Shown: in pieces, positions 3,166-11,176 of the stretch
Numbering within the stretch: the first letter of the stretch is position 1
Layout: each line of letters opens with the position of its first letter
Assembly: GCF_006385575.1 (NCBI RefSeq)
Contig: NZ_CP041040.1
Location: 124,001-188,000 of the forward strand
Reading direction: 5' to 3'
DNA length: 64,000 nucleotides
DNA from: Microbacterium foliorum
GTDB lineage: Bacteria; Actinomycetota; Actinomycetes; Actinomycetales; Microbacteriaceae
Notes under the pieces: model-generated
Databases searched by the model: none
The model's input: only the letters and a program-made list of their open reading frames with translations
What the model was told of the DNA's origin: nothing
Position numbers and translations under genes: made by a program

Positions 3166-3329
3166 GGAGTAGATGGTGTCCTGTCGTTCCCTCACACTCC
3201 CCAGTGCACGAGGGTTTCCCCAGTTCGACTGCGCCTCCCTCGCGCTTCGTTTCCGAAGCCCTTCGCTGGCACCTTCTGGAGATAAGGAGCGAGCCACCGA
3301 TGTTCTGATACATCGAGTGGAGAAAAGAT

Positions 3330-5828
3330 TCAGAGTCCGCTTCCGTGGCACTGGAACGGCGCACTGAGTCCGGTGGATTCGGATGCCGCGGCCAGCGCGA
3401 CGGCCGGTCGTGCACCGGCCGCCAGCTCGATGTGCACGGCGCCGAGCAGCTCGCAGGCGATGTCGTCTGCCACCACCACGGGTGCGGCGATGACACAGCC
3501 GGTGCCGGCGTGCAGCCAGACCCGCGTCATGCCCAGTGCCTCCTCGCCCCAGCGCACCGATGAGCGGCCCAGCTCGCACGCCGAGAGCACCACGGTGTCG
3601 GGCGCGCGCGAGATCAGGTCGACGTCGTAGCCGAACAGGGTGCCGTCGAAGAGCTCGAAGCCTGAGAACAGGGGGTTGTCGACCGCGTGGCGGCCGTGGG
3701 CGGCGATGTGCAGCACGTCGACCTGCTCGGCGAGCTCGGTGACGGCCGACACTCGCGCGCGCTCACCGGTGAGCAGCCGGGCGTCGGTCCACGCCTCGGC
3801 AGCCCGACGCACCTCCTCTTCGGCCCGCGCGACCCGAGGGCCGGTCGCGAATCCGGCCGTCGGACTCGCCGCCGCTGCGTCCTGTGCGCGTTCGGGCGCG
3901 GCGCGCGAGGAGTCCGGCAGCGGAGACGCCGACGACGAATCGGTTCGTCGAGGCGGCTCGCCGAGCAGACGCGACACCGAGGTCGCGATCGTGAACGGCG
4001 TTCCGCGCATTCCGGGGAGCATCGCCCAGGGGATGCCGCCGAGGATGCCGGGAACCGTCAGGGCGAGACGAGCAGCCCCACCCGACGCCGCGCGGGCAGG
4101 TGCGAGGAGTGCGTCGTCGAGCCGGCGCAGCCTGTCGTCGAGCGATCGCGCCACGACGGGGGCCATCGCGCCGCCACGAGTGAGGGCGGCCACGTCGAGG
4201 TCGGCGCGGAGTCCGTCGAGAGCGGCCTCGATGTGCGGCAGCGACAGCTCGACGATCGACGAACCGGATGCCGTCACCACGACGCAGAGCAGCTCCTCGC
4301 GCGTGAAGACATAGGCGAGGATCGCCGTGTCACCGTCGAGACGAGCCCTGGCCTCGAGCAGTCCGAGGCGCTGGTGGTTTCCACCGACACCGGTCGACGA
4401 CCACTGCCGGTCACGCACCCGATCCCGCAGCTCGCGTACACGCGCATCAGTCGTCCAGTCCGACCCGGCGAGCTCTGCGCGCAGCATCCGCAGTTCGGCG
4501 AGGTCGGCCGAGAGGTCTGCGTCATGCGGCGGGCGCACCGGAGCGACCTGCTGGCTCAGATGCCTGGCGCGCTCCGACCACTCGAACAGCACCTCGGGGT
4601 CGCGCGACCGGGCGGCGGCGGCGAGCCCCGTGAACATCAGCTCGGTGCCGTGCATCGCCACGGACGCCTGCAGGTCGAGCGCGCCGAACGACTGCTGCCA
4701 CGCGGTGAGCAGGTCGAGGCCCTCGGCTGCGGCACGGCGGGCGTCGGCATCCCTGCCTGCAGACGCCGCTCGTACCGCCCGCACCTCGTGAGCGCGCAGG
4801 CGCAGCGGAGTCGGGGCGTCGGAGGTGAGCCGCGGCATCCGCCCTCCGTCCGTGAGGCGCGCGGTGAGAGACAGGGCAGTGGCCTCGGTGCGGAACCCTC
4901 CGCGGGTGAGCGCTGCGGCGGTGCGCGCGAAGTCCTCGGCATTCGGCGCGGCCTTCGGGTGGGCGAGCAGCCGGGCCTCCAGCCGCACCGCCTCGGCCCG
5001 GGCGGCCCAGCTCTCACTCCCCAGCGCGGTGAAGCGACGGGATGCGGTCGCGGCTGCCCGCTCGGCAGCAGGGGCGTCGTGCCGCAGCAGCGATCGTGCG
5101 AGGTGGAACTCGGCTTCGCCGCGCGCCTGCCGCATCCGCTGTGCACCGAACCGCACCGCGACCGTGCCGAGCAGTTCCTCGGCCTCTGTCGTCAGGCCCG
5201 CATCGCGCAGCACCTCGGCGCGGTCGAGGTCGCTGATCGCTGCTGCGAGGTCGCTCGTGGCGGCCAGAATCGGCCTCGATCGGGTCATCAGCCCGAGCGC
5301 CGTCACGAGGTCGCCACCGAGCAGTGCGGCATAGCCGAGGTTGTGGCGGGCTTCGGCGAGTGGTGCGTCTGCCCCGTGCGCCTGATACGCGGCGATCGCT
5401 CGCTGCAGATCGGCCGAGCAGTCGTCGAGCCGGTGTCGCTGCATGCTGACGATCGAGCGACTCATCAGGCAGTTGGCGCTCTCGATCGATCCCTCGTCGA
5501 GACCGTCGATCGCCTTCGTGAGAAACAGGTCGGCCTCATCCAGGCGTCCGCCGTGCATGAGGAGCGTGCCCAGCTGCCCGTTCGCGAGGGCGATCGTCTC
5601 ATCGCTGAGGCCAGGGCGCGACAGTGCTTCACGTGAGAGCCGCTCGGCCTCCGCCGGCTGACCCGTCTGGGCGAGCACGTAGGCCATGGTCCCGTCGATG
5701 CGTGCGCGCAGATCGCTGTCGTCGGTGCGCGCGGATGCGGTCGTCAGAGCACGCCGCGCCTGCGCGAACCGTCGGGAGTTGGCTGCGTCGACGCCGCGCT
5801 GATGCAGCTCGAGAGCAGACAGGGGCAC
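3330..5828 (-). CDS. TPR-CHAT domain protein (caspase/separase-like cysteine protease)
   Basis: This is an 832-residue protein. Residues about 1-330 are helical tetratricopeptide-like repeats (ALELHQRGVDAANSRRFAQA, then repeated A/L/R-rich helix pairs). A linker of mixed helices follows, and the C-terminus is a CHAT domain with H711 in IAAHGRH and C751 in LSACELGRS, the canonical His-Cys dyad. No signal peptide or membrane segment is seen, so it should act in the cytoplasm. CHAT proteases are triggered by partner domains and cleave specific host proteins; the TPR part would be the sensor or docking module. The gene follows a subtilisin, a small protein and a sigma factor on the same strand, and it also seems to have its own leaderless promoter (GTG start, CATTCT 6 bases upstream). 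The function is inferred; the target is unknown. Confidence 0.85.
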   Translation of the reverse strand: MPLSALELHQRGVDAANSRRFAQARRALTTASARTDDSDLRARIDGTMAYVLAQTGQPAEAERLSREALSRPGLSDETIALANGQLGTLLMHGGRLDEADLFLTKAIDGLDEGSIESANCLMSRSIVSMQRHRLDDCSADLQRAIAAYQAHGADAPLAEARHNLGYAALLGGDLVTALGLMTRSRPILAATSDLAAAISDLDRAEVLRDAGLTTEAEELLGTVAVRFGAQRMRQARGEAEFHLARSLLRHDAPAAERAAATASRRFTALGSESWAARAEAVRLEARLLAHPKAAPNAEDFARTAAALTRGGFRTEATALSLTARLTDGGRMPRLTSDAPTPLRLRAHEVRAVRAASAGRDADARRAAAEGLDLLTAWQQSFGALDLQASVAMHGTELMFTGLAAAARSRDPEVLFEWSERARHLSQQVAPVRPPHDADLSADLAELRMLRAELAGSDWTTDARVRELRDRVRDRQWSSTGVGGNHQRLGLLEARARLDGDTAILAYVFTREELLCVVVTASGSSIVELSLPHIEAALDGLRADLDVAALTRGGAMAPVVARSLDDRLRRLDDALLAPARAASGGAARLALTVPGILGGIPWAMLPGMRGTPFTIATSVSRLLGEPPRRTDSSSASPLPDSSRAAPERAQDAAAASPTAGFATGPRVARAEEEVRRAAEAWTDARLLTGERARVSAVTELAEQVDVLHIAAHGRHAVDNPLFSGFELFDGTLFGYDVDLISRAPDTVVLSACELGRSSVRWGEEALGMTRVWLHAGTGCVIAAPVVVADDIACELLGAVHIELAAGARPAVALAAASESTGLSAPFQCHGSGL

Positions 5829-5834
5829 TGCACC

Positions 5835-5863
5835 AGAATGCCGGTATGTCTGGTCTCGCGGAA
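5835..5863 (-). promoter_or_regulatory. Candidate leaderless promoter of the TPR-CHAT gene
   Basis: On the minus strand TTCCGC (5858-5863) and CATTCT (5835-5840) are separated by 17 bases, and the GTG start begins 6 bases after the -10 box. This geometry recurs at many genes of the window. Confidence 0.4.
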
Positions 5864-5894
5864 GTCTTGCGGCCGCATCCGGCTCCCCGACCTA

Positions 5895-6029
5895 GGCCGG
5901 ATGGCTGATCGACGCCCGGATGGCTGACCGTACTGACCCTGTTCGGCAGCCACTCGGGGGATCTTCAGCCATCCGGCCGCCGTGCCGAGCCATCCGGCTT
6001 CCGTGCCGAGCCATCCGGCTGCCGTGCCG
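5895..6029. repeat. Inverted repeat plus three 21-bp tandem repeats between CHAT and subtilisin genes
   Basis: GGCCGGATGGCTGA (5895-5908) is perfectly complementary to TCAGCCATCCGGCC (5965-5978). The right arm continues into three tandem copies of AGCCATCCGGCNNCCGTGCCG at 5967, 5988 and 6009. The GCCATCCGG core also forms the repeats at 53.7-53.9 kb. This explains most of the 230-base gap; no gene is seen in it. Confidence 0.8.
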
Positions 6030-6058
6030 TCCCGGCCGACGTGCCGAGCCGGCCGCGG

Positions 6059-7633
6059 CTACCCGCCCGCCACCGGGGAGGGCAGTGTCTTCAGCACGGC
6101 GGCGACGGCCTTGGCCGCGGCACCCGCGGTGACACCCTGCGCAGGCACCGAGCCCAGCTGTGCGGCGATGCGACCCGCGACGTACGGCGCCGCGAACGAC
6201 GTGCCGCTCCAGATCGAGAAGCCTCCGCGATAGTCGTCGGGGTCGATCGTCTCGCGGCGCAACCCGTCGACATCCGCTCTCGTGGTCGCCTGCTCGCCTC
6301 CGACGAAGGCCGGTGACGTGCTGACCACGGCGGCGCCGGGCGCGTACACCTGCACCCACGGGCCGATGTTCGAGAACAGCGCGACTGACCTGGTCGAGGG
6401 ATTCAGGGCGCCGACCGACACATGCGGGGCATCCTTGTCGCGGGGGATGCCGTTGTCGGCTCCGGGCCAGGGCCAGAGGGATGCCGGGAAGGACGGACGG
6501 TCGATCGCATCGTTGCCCGCCGAGCACACCACCACGCACCCGAGCTCACGCGCCGCCGTCAGCAGGGCGTGCAGCGTCGTGCTGAAGAAGCCGTCCTTCG
6601 GCGTCTCGTGGTAATACCCGAGTGACAGATTGAGGACGTCGATCGGATGCCCTGTCGAGGGGTCCTCGCGGTGTCGCCGCAGCAGCTCGACGACCTGCGC
6701 GACCGTCGTCAGGAACGTGCTCTCGTCGATCACGCCGAGCGCTCCGGCCATGCGGATCGACAGGATGTCGGCATCCGGGGCCGTCTGGCGGATGATTCCC
6801 GCGATGAACGTGCCGTGCCCGGCGACCGCGTCGATCTCTCCGTCGAGCTGCCCGTAGAGGTCGGGGTAGCGCTCGGGATCGGCGTCGTCAGTGAGACCGA
6901 TCGGCACGCCGTCGAGCTCGATGTGCCGGGTGACGATGTCGTCCGGCAGCCAATCGTGCACGCCGCACCCTGTGTCGAGCACCGCAACCACCGGGCGGCG
7001 ACCTCGTTTCGGGGCGGCCGTGCGCTGCGGAGCCGGCCCGAGCCACGTCACCGGCTGGCGGGCGCCTCGCCCGGGCTCGAGGTAGTCGTCGCTGCCGCCG
7101 ACTCCTCCGCCCGCGCCGCGCACCGGGTTGGTGCGGCTGAACGGGTTGGTGCGGCTGAAGGGATTCGTGCGGCTGAACGGGTTGAGCCCGACCGGATCGA
7201 TCGACAGCACGTGCTCGAGGCTGGTCCGCGGCATCGGCGTGCCCGAGCTGCGGCGGGCGCGCTGCAGCACGCGCCACGCATCGGGCGGAACCGGAGACTC
7301 GCCGCGGGTCGGCTCGTCGGGGGTGGTCAGACGGGCGCGGAGGAAGCCGGGCACTCCTGGGACCAGCGGATCGGCCGCGCGGAGAGCATCCGGAGATTCG
7401 ATCTCGAGATTCCAGCCGAACGAGCCGGCCGCGTCGCGCAGCTCGCGGATCTCCTGGTCGTAGGCCTCCTGGCCGTTCTCCTGATCCTGCGTGATCAGCA
7501 GGCGCTCCTGCAGATACGCCGTGGGGAACGCCCTGACGCCGTCGACGGGTTCGACCGACGGATCGAGAGCCGTCCCCCGCCTGATCGATCCCTCAGCTCG
7601 GTCCTGCCAACTCCACCCCTTGGGCTGCTCCAT
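6059..7633 (-). CDS. Cytoplasmic S8 (subtilisin-like) serine peptidase with NPFSRT repeats
   Basis: This is a 524-residue protein with a complete subtilase triad: D220 in VAVLDTGCG, H273 in GHGTFIAGI and S479 in SGTSFAAP, with the oxyanion asparagine N374 in SAGN. Residues 1-150 form a charged helical pro-like domain. Residues 151-169 are three exact NPFSRT repeats followed by NP, then a glycine linker before the catalytic domain. There is no signal peptide, so unlike most subtilisins it should stay in the cell. It sits between the small protein and the TPR-CHAT gene, all transcribed from the sigma factor side. I infer that it is a zymogen in a protease relay with CHAT, the repeats being either a cleavage region or a docking tag. 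Degradative housekeeping is the alternative. Confidence 0.88.
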   Translation of the reverse strand: MEQPKGWSWQDRAEGSIRRGTALDPSVEPVDGVRAFPTAYLQERLLITQDQENGQEAYDQEIRELRDAAGSFGWNLEIESPDALRAADPLVPGVPGFLRARLTTPDEPTRGESPVPPDAWRVLQRARRSSGTPMPRTSLEHVLSIDPVGLNPFSRTNPFSRTNPFSRTNPVRGAGGGVGGSDDYLEPGRGARQPVTWLGPAPQRTAAPKRGRRPVVAVLDTGCGVHDWLPDDIVTRHIELDGVPIGLTDDADPERYPDLYGQLDGEIDAVAGHGTFIAGIIRQTAPDADILSIRMAGALGVIDESTFLTTVAQVVELLRRHREDPSTGHPIDVLNLSLGYYHETPKDGFFSTTLHALLTAARELGCVVVCSAGNDAIDRPSFPASLWPWPGADNGIPRDKDAPHVSVGALNPSTRSVALFSNIGPWVQVYAPGAAVVSTSPAFVGGEQATTRADVDGLRRETIDPDDYRGGFSIWSGTSFAAPYVAGRIAAQLGSVPAQGVTAGAAAKAVAAVLKTLPSPVAGG

Positions 7634-7668
7634 CGTGGGTCCTCTCCTCGCGGGCGAAGCCGCGTCCT

Positions 7669-7794
7669 GTGCGGGAGTTCCCGCGGTGTGTGCGGGATGC
7701 CCCGCGTTCCGTGAGAGAGATCCTGCGAGCTGCGGGAGTCGCCCAGCGGGTGGTGTGCGCGGGCCGTCCCGCGATGTGCGCGGGTGGTCCCGCG
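7669..7794. repeat. Four small tandem hairpin units upstream of the subtilisin gene
   Basis: Four degenerate units of about 20 bases, each of the form TGTGCGGGA-N-TCCCGCG, lie at about 7669-7688, 7687-7707, 7753-7774 and 7774-7794. Each can fold as a short GCGGGA/TCCCGC hairpin. They fill the 166-base gap between the small protein gene and the subtilisin gene, and could attenuate read-through or be a mini-satellite. Confidence 0.6.
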
Positions 7795-7799
7795 GTGGA

Positions 7800-8282
7800 T
7801 CACAACTCGAACTGCGGGGTCGTCACGGTTTGCTCCTGATCACCGACCGTCGTGTGGAGGCGCACGAGAGTCAGTCCGTGGGGCACATCGTCGAACATGA
7901 AGCGACCGGTGTCGTCGGCCGTCGTCGTGCGGATGTGCTCGCCCTGCGCGAGTTCGATCGCACCCGATGTCGAGTCGACCCAGCCGTCGACGCGGTGCGC
8001 GCCCGTCGCGGTGCGCGTGACGTGCAACAGGATGCTGGTGGTGCCGTCGCTGAACTGCAGGGTCAGCGCGTCGGCGTCACCGCGTACGGCACCGAGCGGC
8101 TCGTCGATGAGGGTGAGCAGCGCGTACTCCTCCGACAGGCCCTCGGCCGCGACGGTCGCGATCATGCGATCGATCAGGGCGGCGGGCATCGGATCGACGT
8201 TGCGCCAGAGTGAGCGCAGCTGCGCGAACAGCTCGGCATCCTCGTGGTTGTCGCCGCCGTGGGCTCCGTCGTTCTCGCTCAT
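7800..8282 (-). CDS. Conserved small protein coupled to the sigma factor (possible anti-sigma-like regulator)
   Basis: This is a 160-residue protein whose ATG overlaps the sigma factor stop by 4 bases, so the pair is translationally coupled. Residues about 1-55 are acidic and helical (AELFAQLRSLWRNVDPMPAA). The rest is predicted beta-rich, with a pattern (TTTADDTGRFMFDDVPHGLTLVRL) like carboxypeptidase regulatory-like or transthyretin-like modules. No membrane segment and no zinc-binding anti-sigma HxxxCxxC motif is visible. Position directly after a sigma factor and before two proteases makes it a natural candidate for a sigma-binding partner or proteolytic substrate, but the sequence itself does not prove this. 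Confidence 0.7.
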   Translation of the reverse strand: MSENDGAHGGDNHEDAELFAQLRSLWRNVDPMPAALIDRMIATVAAEGLSEEYALLTLIDEPLGAVRGDADALTLQFSDGTTSILLHVTRTATGAHRVDGWVDSTSGAIELAQGEHIRTTTADDTGRFMFDDVPHGLTLVRLHTTVGDQEQTVTTPQFEL

Positions 8283-8914
8283 GAGCTGCGCTCCGTTCGT
8301 GGTGTCGACGCGTCTAGCAGGTCACGCAGCTTCGCGAGGCAGCGCTGGCGGGTGGGGCCGATGCTGCCGACAGGCATCGCGAGATCGGCGGCGAGGCGGG
8401 CGTAATCGGGTCGCTCCTCGAAGGCGATCACGCGCAGCAGTCGTTGGCATCGATCGGCGAGGCGATGCACCGCGACCCAGAGGCGCCGGTTCTCGTCTCC
8501 GACGGTGGCATGGTGCTCGGCCGACTGCTGCTCAGGAAGCAGTGCGTCGAGAGCATCCGACTCCGTGGTGTCGACCCTGTTGTGCGCCTTGCCGGCCCGC
8601 CAGGCCTCGCGGCGGGCGGTGGTGGTGAGCCAGGCCGAGACCGCCTTCGGGTCGCTGATCGAGCGGTGCCCCCGAACCAGTTGCAGCCACGTCGTCTGGA
8701 TGACGTCTTCGGCGAGCGTGCGCTCGAGTCCGTAGGCGCGCACGACATGCCAGAGCACAGGCGTCATCAGCCGCACGAGTCCGTCCATCGCGCGGCTGTC
8801 GCCGTCTCGCCATGCGTCGAAGAATTCGGCGGCTCGCCTCCAGCGAGCCGCGCCGTCGTCCGGTGCAGGATCGAGGCCGGCGCCATCGGGTGCGCCGTCG
8901 ATCATGAGTCCCAT
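8279..8914 (-). CDS. Sigma-70 family (ECF-type) RNA polymerase sigma factor
   Basis: About 211 residues. Region 2 is visible (LVRLMTPVLWHVVRAYGLE, then LAEDVIQTTWLQLVR, the -10 recognition helix). Region 4 ends the protein (YARLAADLAMPVGSIGPTRQRCLAKLRDLL, an HTH with the SIGPTRQR recognition helix). The frame extends to an ATG at 8959, but the added N-terminus is hydrophobic and unlike a sigma factor, so I prefer the ATG at 8914, or the one at 8905. It heads the set with the small protein, subtilisin and TPR-CHAT genes. It probably directs RNA polymerase to a small regulon, perhaps including this cluster, when released from a partner. Confidence 0.85.
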   Translation of the reverse strand: MGLMIDGAPDGAGLDPAPDDGAARWRRAAEFFDAWRDGDSRAMDGLVRLMTPVLWHVVRAYGLERTLAEDVIQTTWLQLVRGHRSISDPKAVSAWLTTTARREAWRAGKAHNRVDTTESDALDALLPEQQSAEHHATVGDENRRLWVAVHRLADRCQRLLRVIAFEERPDYARLAADLAMPVGSIGPTRQRCLAKLRDLLDASTPRTERSS

Positions 8915-8996
8915 TGTGATCACACCAGTCAGGAGCACGGCAAGAGCTTGCTGATACATGGACTCGGTGTTTTTTTCAGGGCGTTAGCGTGGAGGG

Positions 8997-9248: not shown

Positions 9249-9710
9249 TCAGCTCCGGGTGACCGGCTGCTGCAGCTCGGTGATCCAGTCGGCCTGATCT
9301 TCGGATTCCGACCGCAGGTAGACCTCGCGGCACGCACCGACGGCGGTGGCGCCGCCGTCGGTGATCGCCTCGTTCAGCGCATGCCAGCTGTCGTCGATCG
9401 TCGCCATCGTGCCGAGGTGCATGGCGGTGAACGCAGAATCGACGGCCGGCAGCTCGACGATGACGAGCCCGTCGACCGCGGGGCCGTCGTAGACGAAGCC
9501 GACCGTGATGCGCACGCCGTGCTTGTTCATGCCGTACTCGGCGATGGGGAGCCCCGGGGCTCCGCCCGCGGCGATCAGGGCGTCGGCGACCCGGTCGAAC
9601 AGAGGGCCCACGACAGCCGCGACCTCGGGCTGCGAGGCGACGGTCTCGGTCAGCGACGCGAGTCGGGCGAACGGGAGTGGCTTCTCGCTGATCTCCAGGG
9701 CTGACATCAT
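9249..9710 (-). CDS. GyrI-like effector-binding domain protein
   Basis: The ATG at 9710 (after GAGGAGACG) gives 153 residues with the fold of GyrI/SRPBCC-like effector-binding domains: two repeats with the pattern GVRITVGFVYDG and LVIVELPAV, and an aspartate/glutamate-rich end. Such stand-alone domains bind small amphipathic molecules; some hydrolyse them or assist BmrR-like regulators. There is no HTH, so it is not a regulator by itself. It lies next to a MarR gene on the same strand, 57 bases downstream of it. The ligand is unknown. Confidence 0.7.
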   Translation of the reverse strand: MMSALEISEKPLPFARLASLTETVASQPEVAAVVGPLFDRVADALIAAGGAPGLPIAEYGMNKHGVRITVGFVYDGPAVDGLVIVELPAVDSAFTAMHLGTMATIDDSWHALNEAITDGGATAVGACREVYLRSESEDQADWITELQQPVTRS

Positions 9711-9767
9711 CGTCTCCTCAGGTCGTGGGTGCGTGCCGCCGATCCTACGCGCGCGCACCGACATCCG

Positions 9768-10268
9768 TCACGTGCGATCTAGCGTCGGCGGCCTCCACGC
9801 GTCATCCGGCCCGATCGCGGCCGAGACCCTCCGACTGATCACACGGAGCTGGCGTCTCTGCGCCGCGGTGAGACTCTCGAACACCAGTTCGCGCACGAGC
9901 GCATGATGCGCAGGTGTCGACTCGACGACCTTGTCGTGCCCGCTCGGCGTGAGGATTCCCAGCGTGAACCGGCCGTCTGTCGGATCGGTCTCGCGCCGGA
10001 CCCACCCCTTCGCCTCCAGGCGGGAGACCGCGCGCGAGAGTCGCGAGAGGGTGCAGCTGGCATAGCTCGCAAGGACGCTGAGACGCAGTGTGCGATCGGA
10101 AGCGGAGTCGAGCGCGAACAGGATCCCGTGCTCGAAGTGGGTCAGCCCGCTGTCGCGCTGCAGCTGCGCGTCGAGAGCGGTCGGCAGCCGTTCGAGCAGG
10201 GTGGCGACGGGCGCCCAGATCTCCAGCTCCTCCGCGCTCAGGGGGTCGTCGATCGAGTGCTCAGGCAT
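9768..10268 (-). CDS. MarR-family transcriptional regulator
   Basis: This is a 166-residue protein with a central winged HTH (LSVLASYASCTLSRLSRAVSRLEAKGWV) followed by the MarR wing DPTDGRFTLGILTPSG and helices at both ends for dimerisation. MarR proteins usually repress a neighbouring gene and are released by small aromatic or oxidising ligands. The divergent SDR gene and two matching palindromes in the shared promoter (10300-10315 and 10332-10347) are the evident targets. Confidence 0.92.
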   Translation of the reverse strand: MPEHSIDDPLSAEELEIWAPVATLLERLPTALDAQLQRDSGLTHFEHGILFALDSASDRTLRLSVLASYASCTLSRLSRAVSRLEAKGWVRRETDPTDGRFTLGILTPSGHDKVVESTPAHHALVRELVFESLTAAQRRQLRVISRRVSAAIGPDDAWRPPTLDRT

Positions 10269-10296
10269 GTCATGAGCCTACGCCATCCACGCCCGA

Positions 10297-10347
10297 TTGA
10301 CTTGCTCACGCAAGTGAAGACCCGTACAGTTACTTGCCCAAGCAAGT
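10297..10347 (+). promoter_or_regulatory. Promoter with twin MarR operators upstream of the SDR gene
   Basis: Two matching palindromes, ACTTGCTCACGCAAGT (10300-10315) and ACTTGCCCAAGCAAGT (10332-10347), differ only in the 4-base centre and are 32 bases apart. A promoter TTGCTC (10302-10307), 17 bases, TACAGT (10325-10330) lies within and between them, so a bound dimer would block transcription. Confidence 0.75.
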
Positions 10348-10384
10348 CAATGCGCGCTGAAGACCGGCGCGAGAAGGAGTGATC

Positions 10385-11176
10385 ATGGACCTGGGGCTGC
10401 AGGGCAAAACGGCGTTCATCAGCGGATCGACGCAGGGGATCGGCTATGCGATCGCGGCCGCGCTCGCCGCGGAGGGCGCCGAGGTGACGCTGAACGGGCG
10501 CGATGCCGAGCGTCTCGACGCCGCGGTCGAGCGTCTGCGCGGCGAGCACCCGGGCGCGCGAGTGGCGGGTCTCGCGGCCGACTTCTCGAGTGCCGACGAG
10601 GTGGCGCAGCTCACCGAGTCGCTGGGGGATGTGGACATCCTCGTGAACAACGTCGGACTCTTCGGCCTCGCCGACTTCGCATCCGTCGGTGATGAGGACT
10701 GGGCGCGGTACTTCGAGGTCAATGTGATGAGCGGCGTGCGGCTGTCTCGCGCGCTTCTGGGCGGAATGCTCGAGCGGGGTTCTGGCCGCATCGTCTTCAT
10801 CAGCAGCGAGTCCGGCGTCAACGTGCCGGCCGACATGGTGCACTACGGCATGACGAAGGCGGCGATGCTCGCAATCGCGAACGGTCTGGCGAAGCTCACC
10901 CGGGGCACGGCGGTCACGGTCAACACCGTCCTCGGCGGCCCCACATTCTCCGACGGAGTGGCTGCATCCGTGGCGGCGGTGGCCGAAGCGCAAGGCCTTC
11001 CCGCCGAGGCGATGAAGAGCGCGATCATCGGCCAGAACCGAACCACCCTGTTGCAGCGGTTCATCGACCCGACCGAGATCGCGAACCTGGTCGCGTACCT
11101 GTCGAGCCCGCTGTCGTCCGCGACGAACGGTGCCGCCCTGCGCGCGGACGGGGGTGTGCTCACCGGGATGCTGTGA
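10385..11176 (+). CDS. SDR-family oxidoreductase
   Basis: The ATG at 10385, preceded by AGAAGGAG, gives 263 residues. The cofactor motif ISGSTQGIG lies at 12-20, NNVG follows at about 88-91, and the catalytic Tyr-Lys pair is Y154 and K158 (HYGMTKAAM), after SSESG. It is a classical NAD(P)-dependent short-chain dehydrogenase, cytoplasmic. The substrate is not readable. Its divergent partner is a MarR regulator with operators over its promoter, so it is probably induced by a small toxic or aromatic compound. Confidence 0.88.
   Translation: MDLGLQGKTAFISGSTQGIGYAIAAALAAEGAEVTLNGRDAERLDAAVERLRGEHPGARVAGLAADFSSADEVAQLTESLGDVDILVNNVGLFGLADFASVGDEDWARYFEVNVMSGVRLSRALLGGMLERGSGRIVFISSESGVNVPADMVHYGMTKAAMLAIANGLAKLTRGTAVTVNTVLGGPTFSDGVAASVAAVAEAQGLPAEAMKSAIIGQNRTTLLQRFIDPTEIANLVAYLSSPLSSATNGAALRADGGVLTGML

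Follow-up and report, generated by a model that had tools for sequence, protein, structure and literature searches.

The question raised by this locus is whether a sigma factor, a small protein and two proteases encoded side by side form a single regulatory pathway, and how such a pathway would operate. The locus lies in a stretch of 64,000 nucleotides (the window; contig NZ_CP041040.1, positions 124,001 to 188,000) that is part of the complete 3.6 Mb genome of Microbacterium foliorum. The four minus-strand open reading frames are all open and occur in the order sigma factor, small protein, S8 peptidase and TPR-CHAT protein, as a preliminary description made from the sequence had it, and they represent a conserved unit in actinobacteria, beyond chance. 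Tentatively, and with a confidence that stops a little short of even, we read them as an intracellular, CRISPR-free (CRISPR, clustered regularly interspaced short palindromic repeats) and self-amplifying 'cut the inhibitor' sigma switch.

8279..8914, minus strand: gene for an ECF-type (extracytoplasmic function) sigma factor, 211 amino acids (PF04542 and TIGR02937)
7800..8282, minus strand: gene for the small protein, 160 amino acids, a candidate anti-sigma factor (overlap with the sigma gene; model m7d538f2eaf1c)
6059..7633, minus strand: gene for an S8 peptidase, prodomain-type as modelled, 524 amino acids, catalytic D220/H273/S479 (Peptidase_S8)
3330..5828, minus strand: gene for a TPR-CHAT protease, 832 amino acids, dyad H711/C751 (PF12770)

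Conservation of the gene cassette

The analysis covered a sample of 58 genomes of relatives (that of M. foliorum included), a class-wide sample of 394 genomes and 198 genomes of the genus. Of the 58, 24 encode the small protein and represent five genera, and its profile matched 82 of the 394 class genomes and 113 of the 198 genus genomes, three of the latter matches (G460, G464 and G485) being marginal and partial. The 64 loci examined comprise the window and 63 others, namely all 23 other relatives with a match and 40 places outside the genus from the class sample. These loci were selected by their small-protein matches, so its presence is by construction, while the order of the other genes is not; the genes were placed with profiles from close relatives, by which a distant S8 or CHAT gene can be missed.

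The sigma and small-protein genes are adjacent and co-oriented in 62 of the 64 loci, the exceptions being L114, in which the sigma factor was unmatched, and L119, in which the small protein fell below the 40-bit limit. Both proteases are encoded nearby in 47 of these 62 loci, in six arrangements that differ in order or strand: sigma-small protein-S8-CHAT (27 loci), S8-sigma-small protein-CHAT (11 loci), and nine cases with an inverted member. Inspection of other actinobacterial genomes for the same four-gene order, a check suggested with the preliminary description, thus revealed a conserved unit that has been repeatedly reshuffled; a lack of joint conservation in related genomes, named there as a result that would count against the relay, did not appear.

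A CHAT protein is encoded in all 20 genomes searched for it, mostly those lacking a local CHAT gene. Among 12 loci fetched around such genes, ten have an adjoining S8 gene of the same family, always divergent; L149 stops at the contig end, and in L153 neither gene was detected by the profiles used. Six of the ten S8-CHAT pairs are from genomes (G187, G269, G113, G197, G207 and G084) that have a stand-alone sigma-small protein pair, and one of the ten, L152, also holds the sigma and small-protein genes. In the class sample, a CHAT match is present in 81 of the 82 small-protein genomes versus 130 of the 312 others (Fisher p 7e-25, a guide only because the genomes are related); the lone genome without it, G358, has a marginal partial small-protein match. 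The patchy distribution in the genus would fit ordinary neighbours brought together by chance. However, the association persists over many families despite the reshuffling, and this and the co-occurrence among these non-independent genomes make such an explanation extremely improbable.

Relatives of the flanking genes were found on one or both sides of the cassette in L027-L033 and L043 and on neither side in L034-L042, L044 and L045; the cassette therefore sits at several chromosomal sites. Genome G101 carries two complete cassettes, L104 and L152, with different gene orders. The spacing between the S8 and CHAT genes is about 4 kb in L043 and about 1.3 kb in L028.

The sigma factor and the small protein

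The sigma factor matches sigma-70 region 2 (PF04542, 35.8 bits, above the Pfam cut-off) and TIGR02937 (56.8 bits). Its reading frame is open to position 8959, and the upstream ATG is covered by a conserved promoter-like motif, so the start at 8914, chosen in the preliminary description, is the better one. A C-terminal stretch, MPVGSIGPTRxRCLxKLR, recurs by eye in relatives. In L085 the sigma region (9572-10552, minus strand) contains frameshifts and its first part runs into the small-protein frame, which may reflect a sequencing error or a broken gene.

The stop codon of the sigma gene and the start codon of the small-protein gene share the ATGA at 8279-8282, which is the four-base overlap noticed earlier. 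The model of the small protein (m7d538f2eaf1c; pLDDT 78.8, pTM 0.53) contains helices at residues 11-29 and 34-58, a disordered segment at 58-70 and strands from 73 to 154, a predicted layout of N-terminal helices, disordered linker and beta-sandwich. The closest named relatives are from Microbacterium, and the match to CarboxypepD_reg (PF13620, 14.1 bits) does not reach the Pfam cut-off. Some 40 residues of the beta domain recur within much larger open frames of about 900-3000 amino acids (G034:C1:658740-658865, which is locus L026, and similar partial matches) and are perhaps the common carboxypeptidase-regulatory-like repeat.

8073..8111, minus strand: disordered small-protein linker (residues 58-70) carrying the invariant R67; candidate cleavage site (pLDDT <50, alignment)

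R67 is invariant in the 102 chosen sequences, with serine or glycine as the next residue in 95 and the complete motif [AG]VR[SG] in 81, and the linker arginine is also kept in 19 of 19 sequences of a more distant alignment. The R67 linker, mostly [AG]VR[SG] with the cut placed behind the arginine, is a candidate cleavage site. Alternatively, the small protein could serve the proteases as a scaffold or sensor, or act as a cofactor of the sigma factor, the conserved arginine then being structural; its coupling to the sigma factor even where no protease is encoded locally (L092-L101) argues against this, and we consider it distinctly unlikely.

A 2022 review (PMC8999054) proposes, in its account of the sigma group ECF54, that proteases degrade the sigma factor itself in the absence of an anti-sigma factor, based on neighbouring carboxypeptidase, subtilase and CHAT genes. 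However, what is called a 'carboxypeptidase' there is probably no enzyme but the small protein's beta domain, which is carboxypeptidase-regulatory-like and whose profile match is the subthreshold one given above. The pairing of this protein with the sigma factor in nearly all loci (62 of 64), together with an invariant arginine in a flexible linker, further speaks against direct degradation of the sigma factor, which appears improbable here.

The two proteases

The S8 peptidase has an 87-bit match to Peptidase_S8, above the Pfam cut-off. All 49 aligned S8 proteins keep the catalytic Asp/His/Asn/Ser, in agreement with the earlier assignment of D220/H273/S479. The CHAT domain (PF12770, 104 bits, above the cut-off) is the sole CHAT match in the genome, and its H711/C751 dyad is present in 48 of 49 aligned proteins, the exception, L107, being cut off by a contig end. 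Both alignments omit matches of 60 bits or less. Since the catalytic residues are invariant, both proteases look active throughout the sample. The TPR matches are below the Pfam cut-off. A Kyte-Doolittle scan, with no signal-peptide program run, revealed no hydrophobic N-terminal segment in the S8 peptidase, in line with the earlier remark that it has no signal peptide, or in the small protein and the CHAT protein.

In the model of the S8 peptidase a beta-alpha-beta-beta-alpha-beta fold (residues 39-144) precedes the catalytic domain, and matches to pro-subtilisin E, pro-Tk-subtilisin and PCSK9 span residues 36-524. With the catalytic Asp, His and Ser and an inhibitor-like N-terminal prodomain, the protein is modelled as a prodomain-type zymogen. 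Unlike these prodomain subtilisins, the window enzyme has no N-terminal hydrophobic segment, and the junction in its family is a lineage-specific array of identical peptides of 5-8 residues.

7130..7183, minus strand: tandem array NPFSRT x3, S8 residues 151-168, between the prodomain and the catalytic domain

The array is located in the disordered prodomain-catalytic junction of the model. Its copies are identical in residues and saturated at silent sites (non-synonymous pN 0.016 vs synonymous pS 0.60), and the peptide differs between orthologues. Such a residue-identical, silent-site-scrambled and species-specific array is an uncommon pattern that reads as the signature of a rapidly changing site for recognition or processing. 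Lys or Arg is present in 19 of 28 array units. No exact array was found in the 17 distant S8 proteins of L102-L119. Two S8 genes of the same family stand in tandem beside the CHAT gene in L146, L147 and L154.

These properties would also suit a scheme in which the S8 peptidase is the real cutter, its zymogen being unlocked at the array by CHAT or by itself and then destroying the small protein. The modelled prodomain, the position of the array at the junction, the identity of its copies and the frequent basic residues are in favour of it. However, L045 retains genes for the sigma factor, the small protein and CHAT although no S8 gene is local, the distant S8 proteins lack the exact array, and the units devoid of Lys and Arg would require a changing specificity of CHAT. 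We regard this scheme as a serious contender that is nevertheless rather unlikely.

Promoter-like motifs and a structured RNA

8933..8957, minus strand: promoter-like motif 1, GTATCAG-N15-CTC, immediately preceding the sigma gene
3287..3311, minus strand: promoter-like motif 2, GTATCAG-N15-CTC, 19 nt 3' of the CHAT stop codon
3136..3291, minus strand: putative structured RNA following motif 2, with a CUGGGGA-loop hairpin and then a long terminator-like hairpin

All 20 genus loci, the window included, have the motif GTATCA-N15..18-CTC upstream of the sigma gene. In 17 of the 19 genus cassettes with CHAT, a second copy on the same strand follows the CHAT gene at up to 1.5 kb, at a distance of up to 63 nt in 14 and of 264, 484 and 1507 nt in L045, L039 and L030, respectively. 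The copy after CHAT is missing in L040, and in G001 the copy and the RNA lie about 7.7 kb further (L198). Of the 44 loci outside the genus, 25 carry the motif at -80 to 400 nt of a cassette gene on its own strand, some of these sites overlapping coding sequence, a count with no control run. The motif precedes the S8 gene in six of the 11 loci in which this gene comes first (L048, L049, L080-L082 and L113).

In seven genomes the strict motif has 43 sites, 14 of which are at the cassette or the RNA; 29 remain, and the reversed control gives 30. No conserved motif target other than the locus was found. A broader regulon that uses a looser motif is possible, because the loose motif exceeds its reversed control outside the locus. 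The same excess lowers slightly our estimate for a reading in which the output of a stand-alone, CRISPR-free switch of actinobacteria lies in the proteases, rather than in a broader regulon, and leads to growth arrest or cell suicide. The sigma factor would then mainly amplify two cytosolic proteases and the RNA, and the array would be a lineage-specific lock whose copies change together; this we consider unlikely.

The sequence behind motif 2 looks non-coding by eye (one- and two-base gaps), and open frames exist there. In seven related sequences, 11 of the 23 pairs are changed on both sides, which none of 500 shuffles reaches, the structure being derived from the same alignment and the result biased that way. 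RNA model R1 scores 146 bits on the window, whose RNA is a training sequence. The CUGGGGA loop belongs to a conserved hairpin, and CTGGGGA recurs elsewhere in the RNA. In L090 and L091 motif 2 is followed, just downstream of CHAT, by a conserved gene of 105 amino acids with a weak PF22425 match.

Proposed mechanism

The TPR-CHAT protease Csx29 cuts Csx30, a two-domain protein that inhibits an ECF sigma factor (PMC10028731), and the protease CalpL cuts the anti-sigma factor CalpT (PMC11229360), as described in these papers. Joined with the precedents of CASP and CalpL, the cassette facts are most simply read as follows. The small protein would hold the ECF sigma factor, probably via its N-terminal helices. 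The TPR-CHAT protein would receive a signal, probably through its TPR part, and this signal would activate CHAT, which may then cut the flexible linker of the small protein after Arg67. The S8 zymogen may be unlocked by cutting or self-cutting in the peptide array and would complete or amplify the destruction of the small protein. Judging by the promoter-like motifs, the freed sigma factor would transcribe the structured RNA next to the cassette as well as its own operon, and the transcription of the operon would make the switch self-amplifying. The preliminary description had offered a relay of protease activation, cleavage of the small protein and sigma release; the invariant arginine in the disordered linker and the modelled S8 zymogen lend it partial support.

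Several observations weigh against the proposed switch. The small protein has no match to any anti-sigma family, its model is only moderately confident (pTM 0.53), and the invariant arginine could be structural; the Csx29 cut site, as reported in PMC10028731, had no essential residue. The cassette of L045 has no local S8 gene, and neither protease is encoded locally in 14 loci, two of which (L029 and L088) are on short contigs. Nine of the 28 array units, as scored, contain neither Lys nor Arg. The loose motif is absent near the genes in 19 of the 44 loci outside the genus, including all ten of L092-L100 and L105, and outside the locus it has 30 sites in the M. foliorum genome versus 13 for the reversed control.

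Flanking regions and possible role in defence

The cassette is flanked by ROK, pfkB and DeoR genes on one side and by MarR, SDR and MFS genes on the other. Short direct repeats (CGGCACGGxxGCCGGATGGCT-like) are present in the S8-CHAT gap (window 5829-6058), and GCGGGA/TCCCGC repeats are abundant between the small-protein and S8 genes (window 7640-7799). In PADLOC the sigma factor, the small protein and the CHAT protein had no match, and the S8 peptidase matched subtilase/IetS models only weakly (best 2.2e-07). A defence role, raised as an option in the preliminary description, is possible, and neither PADLOC nor the flanking genes show a positive sign of it here.

Comparison with known systems

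According to PMC8999054, citing Casas-Pastor 2021 and Huang 2015, genes for carboxypeptidase-like, subtilase and CHAT proteins neighbour ECF54 sigma factors, and proteolytic control has been proposed. The window cassette shows this neighbourhood, its carboxypeptidase-regulatory match being below the Pfam cut-off, so the grouping of the four genes is real and conserved but is not a new association. Where the ECF54 account assumes no anti-sigma factor, the window adds a candidate one with a candidate cut site, and to that description it further adds the S8 zymogen with its peptide array and the local RNA.

As in the type III-E CASP/Craspase system described in PMC10028731, a TPR-CHAT protease with a His/Cys dyad (TPR matches below the cut-off) accompanies an ECF sigma factor whose own locus contains motif copies, and the small protein, a candidate inhibitor, resembles Csx30 in its modelled two domains with a flexible linker. 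The two differ in length (160 amino acids vs 565 in Csx30), and the window adds a second protease, S8. RAMP-type Cas7-11 (PF03787) has no matches in the complete M. foliorum genome, while four of 14 control genomes match.

In CalpL-CalpT-CalpS, as presented in PMC11229360, a protease likewise cuts an anti-sigma factor and frees a sigma factor, which for the window is a proposal; there, however, the protease is a SAVED-Lon protein activated by cyclic tetra-adenylate, with no CHAT or S8 component. The type III CRISPR SAVED-CHAT cascade of the same paper is also headed by a CHAT protease, but has a SAVED sensor and is CRISPR-linked, whereas the window has a TPR part and a subtilisin as the second protease.

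New here are the layout of the small protein with its candidate site, the S8 zymogen and array, and the promoter-like motif with the covarying RNA; the neighbourhood was already known. The cassette would extend a remark on the ECF54 neighbourhood to a testable pathway. The logic of CRISPR-bound TPR-CHAT sigma release seems to recur without CRISPR in about one fifth of the class sample (82 of 394 genomes), and this family adds another protease, a specific candidate cut site and a local RNA.

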